Shown here piece by piece: positions 59,201 to 61,885 of a DNA stretch of 64,000 nucleotides. The stretch's first letter is position 1. Each line of letters opens with the position of its first letter. The stretch is from Clavelina lepadiformis (taxonomy: Eukaryota > Chordata > Ascidiacea > Aplousobranchia > Clavelinidae): positions 16,909,856-16,973,855 of the forward strand of contig NC_135246.1 in NCBI RefSeq assembly GCF_947623445.1, read 5' to 3'. Under the pieces are notes generated by a model that searched no databases, had not been told where the DNA came from, and saw nothing but the letters and a program-made list of their open reading frames with translations. The translations under genes and the position numbers were made by a program.

Positions 59201-61885
59201 CACCTTCCACCCAAGAAAGAAGAAAGCAAGTTGATTCAACGCGAAAAAGCTGAGACGGGAAATGTAAGACATCGCTGAAGATTATTTTATGACTCTTGAA
59301 GTTTAATTCTTCTGCAACATATTTAAATTAGGATCTCCGATGCATTTTCACGAACAATGTATTGTCAGGTAAAACTCTCAGTGTTTATTTCGTACATGAG
59401 CTCAGTTGGATACTTCCTTTCATTTCTCATCATCCTGTTTTATATCATGCAAAACGTAGCTGGCGTGTATTCTAGTATCTGGCTTTCAGGTATGTATTAA
59501 AACAAGACATGTTTTTTACGGTACTGAGTTGACTTTACGGAAAACTTAATTGTAACTGTTTGCTTGACATATTTCACTCACCCTTACAGACTGGAGCACA
59601 GATCCTGTCAATCCAGACGGCACACAGAATGGAACTGATGTACGACTTGCAGTGTTCGGTTGCTTAGGAGTGTTTCAGGGTCAGTACTATGCATGACCAA
59701 GCTTCATACTTTCAACTTATTCACCTGGTTAATAGAGTGATACCTCAGATGGCTACCAACCCAATAACAAGACTGCCTCATCAATGGAAGCTTTTTTCCA
59801 TTTTCAAATTTTTTCCATGGTTTTGAGTCGAATAAACGGGCTCTCTATGCCTTCGGGTGATGACCTTATGTTGCACCAGGGACAATTTTATCACATGACA
59901 TGTGCGGAAATCTTTATGTTAGATAATTATCGCACCCGAAGAAAAATTGAGTAATTGGCTTTTTAAACCAAAATTGGGAAATATGACTGCCCCGATAGTA
60001 AGATGAGTTTTTGTTAGTCTCATGGGTGGTTTGCAATACTGAGGCTTCACTGTGTATTGTACAATGTAGATTAATTAGCAGTGTTTTACATGAGCCTTGT
60101 AAGATGTCCGCAGGGTTATTGCTACATTGGTGCATCTATTAAAATAATTTATTAAAAAGTAGCTTAACTCTTCAACTGGCTTGATCTTCAGCTCTCTTGG
60201 TGATGTTAGCATCATTCACTATGACATCCGGCTCTGTTGCGGCAGCGGCAGTTATCCATGTCAACATGATTTCTCGAGTTTTTCACTCACCCATGTCTTT
60301 CTTTGACACAACTCCGCTTGGTAGAGTTATTAATCGATTCAGGTCGGTTATCAGAAATCCAACCAGTAGAATCTAATCAGTGCTCTAATTTTTATGATTT
60401 TTGGAAGTGTTTAATTTCTATTATCCTGCAGCAATGTGAATAGATTTGATATTACAAAAATAGCCATTGAAATTTGAGCATGCACATAATTTGTAACTCA
60501 ATTCTGGTCGTAGATATAGATGATTTAATAAGGAGAAAACTGTTGGTTTTTATTTAAACTACATATTGGTTCGATTAATCAGAATTCAACTAACAACTTA
60601 GAAAAGCATTTTTATACATTTTGCCAGACTTAATCTTCCCATTGTTTGTTATTTATTTGTTTAACCCCCAAATACCTGTTGACTCAATTATTTTATGACC
60701 AGCAAAGACATTTACTTGATTGATGAGGTCATACCAAGGGCTCTGTCTTCCTTTTTGGTAACACTCTTCAGCTCGCTGGCTACAATTTTTATCGTTATCT
60801 ATGGAACCCCGGTGTTTGCTGCTGTCATCTTTCCCCTGTTACTGCTATATTACTTTGTGCAGGTTTAGTTATGCTTCAAAATGGCAGACAATCGGCACTG
60901 GGTCTTGATGTTTCGTATAAATTTGTCACTTTTAAGGCACATTTCGACGTAACATGAATGGTTACTTTCTGTAGGTTTAGGTCTGGATCAATATCAAGCT
61001 ACATCAGGAAACACAGAGCTCCGCAAGCCTGTGACTTAAGTTGTTAGTTTAGGGCGATAAAAGTTCCAAAGAATTACAACCCATTTTTTATATTGAAGGG
61101 AATTTTTGTACTGATTGATTAATTATTATCACTGTTGATGTTTCGTACAATTTGATTGTTCGACGAAAAACGTTTATTACCTTCCCTTTTCTCTTTGTAA
61201 TTATAAATTTAATGTACTGCAATTGAAGAAAGTGCAAAATTGAATTTTATTTTTCTGATGCTACCTAATTCATCATTTCTTGCTCTTGAGATGGGGGCAT
61301 CAACTCTTCCTTTACTTCTACTTCCCTTGTAACTCGTTGTCACATTCTACCAACTACTTTCCCAGGCTTGTGCGTATTTCTCGAAGGGATTTCTTTGTAC
61401 AGCGGTTGCTTGCAGGCTGCCCAATATCTGCATGATGTTATGCTCCACAACATTCTAAGAGTGCCAATGTCATTTCACGACCAGACACCAACGGGGAGAA
61501 TCGTTAATCGCTGCAGTAAAGATATTGATGTGATGGACGATCTTCTGATCAAGTATGGGGTTTCATTGCTATTTTGCTGTTAAATTTTTGCTTTTTGTTT
61601 TACAGTTGTTTGTTATAAATGTGTTATTTATAGATATGATCATATCATCCTATGTCATGATCATATCATCATATGATATGATATGATCTTGCATAATTAG
61701 ATACACCTGTAAAAACAACTGACCTGTGAAATGTTTAAAATTAAGTTTTATTTTCAATCAGAGTGCTGTCTTGGTTCTTCAACTGCATGTTCAAAGTTCT
61801 AGGGACATTGTTTGTCATCTGTTATGCCACACCTTATTTCACACTCGCACTGTGTCCTATTCTTATCCTCTACTTCTTCATACAG
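50281..61885 (+). CDS. ABCC1/MRP1-like ABC transporter (partial, first ~1153 codons)
   Basis: ATP-driven exporter of conjugated organic anions. Exons: 50281-50316, 50403-50579, 50917-51042, 51362-51505, 51695-51814, 51944-52065, 52217-52339, 52820-52902, 53085-53211, 53737-53911, 54089-54209, 54309-54442, 54526-54627, 55013-55114, 55225-55371, 55464-55621, 55697-55823, 57613-57789, 57890-57958, 58091-58189, 58276-58359, 58526-58631, 58736-58841, 59092-59263, 59369-59489, 59590-59679, then either 60192-60342+60703-60862 or 61366-61552+61762-61885. Has TMD0 (exons 1-5), TMD1 ([26 protein letters not shown]), NBD1 with Walker [10 protein letters not shown] (about 681), signature LSGGQKQR, Walker B VYLFDDP and VTHG switch. 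Collinear with human ABCC1. The rest of TMD2 and NBD2 lie past the window. ABCC1 or close paralogue ABCC2/3/6 cannot be told apart here. Confidence 0.92.
55841..56107. mobile_element. degenerate hAT-type element
   Basis: Starts CAGGGGTTCTCAACC and ends near GGTTGGGAACCCTT, a diverged inverted pair of the common hAT type. No target duplication could be matched, so the right limit is approximate. In ABCC intron 17. Confidence 0.5.
56131..57195 (-). mobile_element. hAT element with transposase 3' part, 1065 bp
   Basis: Perfect 15-bp inverted ends CAGGGGTGTGCAACC/GGTTGCACACCCCTG and an exact 8-bp target duplication GTCTATAG at 56123-56130 and 57196-57203. Encloses a minus-strand transposase C-terminal frame (56369-57115). 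Internally deleted, because the N-terminal zinc finger and first catalytic part are missing. In ABCC intron 17. Confidence 0.9.
56369..57115 (-). pseudogene. hAT transposase C-terminal half
   Basis: 248-codon frame starting [16 protein letters not shown]. It includes [29 protein letters not shown] and near the end [22 protein letters not shown] plus [13 protein letters not shown], the hAT dimerisation region as in the GTF2IRD2/ZBED5/FAM200-type transposases. The initiator here is probably not the original one: the upstream half, with the zinc finger and the first catalytic acidic residue, is absent from the element. The remaining frame has no stop, which suggests recent origin. Plain DNA-transposon remnant, no sign of host use. 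Confidence 0.85.
57296..57532. mobile_element. miniature hAT element, 237 bp
   Basis: Ends CAGGGATGTCCAACC and GGTTGGACATCCCTG, exact 8-bp target duplication AACTAGAC at 57288-57295 and 57533-57540. Longer sibling of 48333-48508. Third hAT element in ABCC intron 17. Confidence 0.88.
58842..59091 (+). other. GC-AG intron of the ABCC gene (intron 23)
   Basis: Exon 23 must end ATGAG and the next exon begins GCAGCAAAG to keep phase, which gives the donor AG|GCAATG and acceptor AACAG|G. Reading on past the donor meets TGA two codons later. GC-AG introns are a known rare class handled by the major spliceosome. Confidence 0.7.
60192..60862 (+). other. ABCC TMD2 cassette A (exons 60192-60342 and 60703-60862)
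   Basis: 311 coding nt, entering in phase 1 and leaving in phase 0. Encodes [14 protein letters not shown] ... [19 protein letters not shown] ... [15 protein letters not shown] ... YYFVQ, the segment that in human ABCC1 covers the helix pair around [20 protein letters not shown]. The internal intron splits the Ser codon of INRFS. Confidence 0.85.
61366..61885 (+). other. ABCC TMD2 cassette B (exons 61366-61552 and 61762-61885)
   Basis: Also exactly 311 coding nt with the same outer phases as cassette A. Encodes [13 protein letters not shown] ... [19 protein letters not shown] ... [15 protein letters not shown] ... LYFFIQ, aligned over its full length with cassette A. Its internal intron lies 36 nt further downstream than in cassette A. 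Confidence 0.85.
61633..61688. repeat. AT-rich direct/inverted repeat hairpin
   Basis: ATGATCATATCATC occurs twice; GATCATATCAT at 61659-61669 pairs perfectly with ATGATATGATC at 61678-61688 around an 8-nt loop. Lies in the intron inside ABCC cassette B. Confidence 0.75.

Follow-up and report, generated by a model that had tools for sequence, protein, structure and literature searches.

A probable tandem exon duplication with two predicted mutually exclusive cassettes in an MRP-type transporter gene of the tunicate Clavelina lepadiformis

In the tunicate Clavelina lepadiformis, an MRP-type transporter gene carries two versions, A and B, of one 311-nt segment of TMD2, and these very probably go back to the tandem duplication of an ancestral exon and now serve as two mutually exclusive cassettes. 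The gene lies in a stretch of 64,000 nucleotides (assembly GCF_947623445.1, contig NC_135246.1, positions 16,909,856 to 16,973,855), referred to here as the window, and positions are counted from its first letter. As read from the sequence, each productive mRNA would carry either A or B, and the use of both or of neither would shift the frame, resulting in destruction of the mRNA or truncation of the protein. The two proteins would share TMD0, TMD1, NBD1, TM16-TM17 and NBD2, and would diverge over the larger part of TM13, the first TMD2 coupling loop, TM14 and the beginning of TM15.

The host gene and its two cassettes

The host gene is predicted to encode a TMD0-bearing transporter of the ABCC1/2/3 (MRP) type. 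Its N-terminal exons, joined by eye for this query, correspond to TMD0, with query residues 4-141 matching residues 20-157 of MRP1 (E 4e-21). The best PDB matches of the region from TMD2 to NBD2 with A in place are ABCC3, MRP1 and MRP2, and the TMD2 part with B likewise finds ABCC3, MRP1 and MRP2. Placed in context, A gives a score of 137.1 bits and B one of 147.8 bits against the ABC_membrane family (PF00664). The designation of the gene as an ABCC1-like transporter in the first-pass annotation is therefore well founded, in view of both the PDB matches and the MRP1-type TMD0.

Both cassettes comprise two exons and are flanked by one common upstream and one common downstream exon (Table 1). 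Each totals 311 nt, enters in phase 1 and leaves in phase 0, and contains 103 open codons after the split codon at its entry, which gives Ala when joined to A and Gly when joined to B. The coordinates, lengths, phases and open frames that the first-pass annotation had given for these exons are all correct, with GT-AG borders throughout. Its view that A and B are versions of the same TMD2 segment is confirmed by an identity of 41% over 103 residues, aligned without gaps.

Table 1. Positions of the cassettes, their flanking exons and introns, and the arms of a candidate RNA pairing
Feature	Position	Strand	Remarks
Constitutive exon, TMD2 start	59369-59489	+	placed by homology; GT-AG borders
Constitutive exon upstream of the cassettes	59590-59679	+	ends in phase 1
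Cassette A, exon 1 (A1)	60192-60342	+	151 nt; internal intron in phase 2
Cassette A, exon 2 (A2)	60703-60862	+	160 nt; exits in phase 0
Inter-cassette intron	60863-61365	+	503 nt
Candidate RNA pairing, arm 1	60990-61059	+	pairs with 63167-63242, -49.6 kcal/mol; weak
Cassette B, exon 1 (B1)	61366-61552	+	187 nt; internal intron in phase 2, 36 nt downstream of A's position
Cassette B, exon 2 (B2)	61762-61885	+	124 nt; exits in phase 0
Intron after B, in-window portion	61886-64000	+	whole intron 2378 nt
Candidate RNA pairing, arm 2	63167-63242	+	pairs with 60990-61059; weak
Common downstream exon	64264-64354	+	beyond the window; enters in phase 0

When the exons are spliced in silico, A alone and B alone both leave the frame open across the following two exons, whereas A followed by B runs into a stop once 30 codons of B have been read, and omission of both cassettes leads to a stop after 26 codons. 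The earlier claim that only one of the two can be used per mRNA thus stands for whole cassettes, but it does not extend to their parts: a hybrid of A1 and B2 (275 nt), which lacks 12 residues where the coupling loop passes into TM14, is also in frame, both internal introns being in phase 2. Frame alone can therefore not enforce the choice between the cassettes.

Several other loci surround the gene. Its upstream neighbor, at 44734-45159 (+), encodes a nucleolar GTPase of the NOG1/GTPBP4 type (Pfam NOG1, E 1e-20, over a 61-residue piece), and a long open frame at 38703-39992 (-) encodes a C2H2 zinc-finger protein. Frames of 219 and 157 aa at 26922-27581 (+) and 429-902 (+) look transposon-derived by eye and have no Pfam match at E 0.001. 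In the NBD1 region of the transporter gene itself, an intron of ~1.8 kb that starts near 55824 holds a 248-aa open frame (56369-57115, -), which is probably a transposon remnant; it matches the hAT transposase dimerisation domain at 19.8 bits (E 0.0007), below the Pfam cut-off of 21.4. On the same strand, tblastx of 50001-68000 against itself pairs 56474-56605 with 66519-66650, the latter beyond the window, at 42 bits. Elsewhere in the genome, a cellulose synthase match at C9:12557660-12558118 scores 28.7 bits, above the family cut-off of 24.7, and involves a 309-codon open frame and a neighboring frame that appear by eye to be successive exons; in the control for this profile search, matches were obtained in 3 of 14 genomes, all bacteria. 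Tunicates are the animals known to have cellulose synthase genes, and the match lends independent support to a tunicate origin of the DNA.

The probable duplication and its inherited length

In the tblastx self-comparison of 50001-68000, A and B form the only notable coding pair, as two co-linear pieces of 53 and 50 bits, with the other pieces grouped with them reaching at most 24 bits. This comparison failed to detect NBD1/NBD2, so its sensitivity is limited and fainter duplications could escape it. Once A and B are masked, 50001-68000 yields no third cassette (tblastn best 21 bits, E 0.13). Each cassette occurs once at full length in the 209-Mb genome, and a further match joins 52 bases of A's first exon to paralogue p3 at 85%. 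The single full-length occurrence of each indicates that A and B are not assembly haplotypes and, together with the 41% residue identity and the differing introns, rules out a haplotype or assembly duplicate.

The equal length and phase of the two cassettes had been taken as a sign of alternative splicing. Whereas the lengths are indeed equal, 311 nt is the inherited length of this segment in the family: it is found in 9 of 9 paralogues modelled with a script that favored 311-nt splice combinations among candidate sites, and in exon 23 of human ABCC6. Length and phases are thus inherited and provide no independent evidence for alternative use. The nine modelled paralogues, from 11 loci examined, are p1-p6 (C7, 15.74-15.83 Mb), p7 (C4), and p9 and p10 (C6); p8, with its intron elsewhere, and p11, which is partial, lie outside the model set, and weaker paralogue matches were omitted. 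In all of p1-p7 (7/7) the segment is split into 151 + 160 nt by an intron at A's position, and each has one cassette. The intron of A and p1-p7 is in phase 2 and falls in the serine of NRF-S-KD in 8/8 cases. The internal intron of p9 and p10 lies 4 nt later and is in phase 0, and B's intron position occurs in 0 of the 9. While p1-p7 are like the present gene in their A-type 311-nt segment, no B-like second copy, or duplicated cassette of any kind, was found in paralogues among the matches listed (two lists, of 42 and 39 matches).

The extent of the human exon is implied by the names of two ABCC6 deletions. A deletion of exons 23-29 is named c.2996_4208del in PMC7773789, which places the start of exon 23 at c.2996, and an exon 24 deletion is named c.3307-940_3506+660del in PMC8235548, so that exon 23 ends at c.3306; it consequently measures 311 nt and starts inside codon 999. 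A residue table in PMC8267652 equates ABCC6 S1065 with ABCC1 M1093, so that codon 999, if no gap intervenes, is equivalent to ABCC1 residue 1027, where the split codon of the cassettes lies. The human exon therefore has the same 311 nt and the same start codon position as the cassettes, but is constitutive and unsplit. It is present as a single copy in the human gene. The equal length and the phases of A and B can thus be taken to derive, through duplication, from one ancestral exon, and the unusual trait of the locus lies elsewhere, in two-exon blocks that are each split by their own intron at unmatched places.

The genome holds further relatives of the gene. Six ABCC1-like loci, p1-p6, all on one strand (-), occupy C7 15.744-15.831 Mb (~90 kb), ~1.1 Mb from the window gene, and show that this transporter type has expanded locally; p4 and p5 are near-identical (dS ~0.05). 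An ABCC5-like gene at C4:17994654-17995034 has a single 1368-codon open frame (992 codons read) in an otherwise intron-rich genome, and looks like a retrogene.

Origin and condition of cassette B

When 15 cassette proteins are placed in a tree, A groups with p1-p7 (support 88/99, below the level that the program stars) and B falls outside. The branch of B measures 1.11 changes per column against 0.64 for A, and its closest paralogue is p2, at 52% identity compared with 41% to A. A sister relationship of A and B is not rejected (AU p 0.109), and in combination with the long branch this makes the placement of B uncertain. A tree of the flanking exons, with 11 rows (p5 and p10 left out), is too weak to place the gene among p1-p7, and synonymous change is saturated for dating. 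An old duplication, preceding either the A-type intron or the spread of the paralogues, is the preferred reading; a recent duplication accompanied by intron loss and gain is possible. The position of B in the best tree, its lack of the internal intron common to A and p1-p7, and its greater similarity to p2 than to A could also indicate that B came from another ABCC gene, by ectopic insertion or gene conversion, and became an alternative exon later. Such a foreign origin is rather unlikely, as B's intron position is seen in none of the nine modelled paralogues (two further loci lying outside that set), the long-branched B may yet be the sister of A, and an old duplication preceding the expansion of the gene family accounts for the same facts. 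It concerns the origin of B only and overlaps on function with the preferred explanation, so that the probabilities of the two do not sum to one.

Whatever its source, B looks like a functional segment that has diverged, and signs of constraint are present on both copies. B-specific changes are in excess at third codon positions in 3/3 comparisons, which overlap and are not independent, with 40/148 at positions 1 and 2 versus 18/35 at position 3, 44/152 versus 31/52, and 55/172 versus 28/55 (Fisher p 0.008, 0.0001 and 0.015, respectively). It retains 12 of 14 columns that are invariant in 12 other sequences and 26 of 36 that are invariant in A and p1-p7, counts that omit p5 and bovine ABCC1 as near-copies of retained rows. 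The two of the former that it has lost are F37 (H in B) and F49 (C in B); the Pro at column 61 that A and p1-p7 have is also absent from it. These signs of constraint, along with an ABC-membrane score slightly above that of A, indicate that B is probably no relic. Nevertheless, second positions have changed at 0.25-0.29 of sites in B versus 0.03-0.08 in A (~3.5 to 10 times as much in matched comparisons), indicating weaker constraint or a shifted function. Scored with a small PWM (25 donors), the B1 donor reaches 3.3 bits and is non-consensus, compared with 7.5-10.6 for A1, A2 and B2, and the constitutive upstream donor scores 1.0. That B is a decaying duplicate, a pseudo-exon used rarely or never while A does the work, would fit its longer branch, its faster second positions, the loss of two otherwise invariant residues and the poor donor of its first exon. 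A decaying exon is hard to reconcile, however, with 103 open codons, every splice site intact, an excess of third-position change and a Pfam score exceeding that of A, and is improbable. Far less credible again is the joint presence of A and B in some transcripts, in frame through an unseen short exon, a reading with nothing found in its favor, as this would place the same helices twice in series, and the direct join ends at the stop within B described above.

Choice of cassette and its consequences

The arrangement suggests that both cassettes are alternatively spliced in, which raises the issue of how splicing might choose. Exclusion by steric hindrance is subject to a length limit, and the inter-cassette intron, with its 503 nt, is too long for it. 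Some clusters of mutually exclusive exons have competing intronic RNA pairings between docking and selector sites. Intronic RNA pairing has been described for MRP exon clusters in PMC6071210. Out of five intron pairs tried here, one yields a candidate pairing (Table 1) that would loop out B; its energy is matched by 0/60 shuffles but by 3/60 random real stretch pairs, and the pairing is consequently a lead only. The other four stay within the shuffle range, and none of the five pairs gives a signal clear of real-sequence controls. A genome search at the sensitivity applied gave no second copy of the surroundings of either arm, short repeats in the three flanking introns were not suggestive, and no Rfam family scored above threshold in the window. 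The weak exit donor of A, considered as a switch, is ruled out as special, because p4, p5 and p6, with a single cassette, have gttt-type donors there.

By alignment, the cassette corresponds to residues 1028-1130 of human MRP1. It takes in the greater part of TM13, followed by the coupling loop, TM14 and the first part of TM15; for TM13 and the loop, the placement follows the known topology. The placement of TM14-TM15 is consistent with the chimera borders in PMC7203140, where a TM14-TM15-ICL7 chimera is invoked in explaining poor or absent expression. According to the list in PMC8267652, 14 residues line the LTC4 cavity of MRP1, and 1 of the 14, Met1093 in TM14, lies inside 1028-1130; at this position A has Ser and B has Trp. 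The first-pass annotation had spoken of a substrate-facing helix pair, which agrees with this one cavity residue but is too narrow for a segment that reaches from TM13 to the start of TM15 and includes the coupling loop. With segment borders set by us, A and B are identical in 11/34 columns of TM13 and its extension, 13/22 of the coupling region, 10/29 of TM14 and 8/18 of the TM15 start, indicating that the NBD-facing part is best kept and that the membrane parts differ more. Exchange of A for B may thereby alter transport or substrate range, for example via Ser versus Trp at the Met1093 position.

A more far-reaching account of the locus can be offered tentatively, although we would not favor it as a whole. 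Splicing would have to pick A1+A2 or B1+B2 as two-exon blocks with non-homologous introns and reject the in-frame A1+B2; the split between A and B would predate the expansion of ABCC1 genes in this genome, the other copies keeping the A type only; and the resulting pumps would handle different ranges of substrates owing to TM13-TM15. The A/B pair offers a test case for how splicing chooses matched two-exon blocks, as well as a natural chimera experiment for locating the part of MRP TMD2 that determines which substrates are chosen. If the duplication is used as predicted, the animals in which an MRP pump is diversified by exon swap would come to include a tunicate, a member of the vertebrate sister group. 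The exon swap also adjoins a family diversified by gene duplication, on one contig and ~1.1 Mb apart, making the outputs of the two directly comparable.

Drosophila MRP has a second, smaller cluster of alternative exons, whereas one duplicated segment was found in the present gene (50001-68000 self-comparison). The parallel with the fly gene that had been drawn at first pass is apt, since PMC6071210 lists Drosophila MRP (CG6214) as “MRP (8)”, i.e., with 8 mutually exclusive exons; the fly MRP gene has alternative exons, as the present one is predicted to have, with 8 alternatives in the fly versus 2 here. According to the same source, exon duplications in MRP genes are independent in different phyla, and in PMC7434440 the mrp-1 exons are described as “exactly the same length” and as having arisen independently per lineage; both papers cite Yue et al. 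2017 (RNA Biol 14:1399). No tunicate case of such MRP exons was found in the open-licence literature among the matches listed, and a published case is possible. The abstract by Yue and colleagues reportedly names early-diverging chordates, amphioxus included. Mutually exclusive duplicated MRP exons are already established in several phyla, as described in PMC6071210 and PMC7434440, and the present gene is a further, predicted example. Like the metazoan arrays covered by these sources, it has tandem duplicated exons of the same length, of which one is predicted to be used per mRNA; unlike in those arrays, each alternative here is made up of two exons, and the two alternatives are split at different places.
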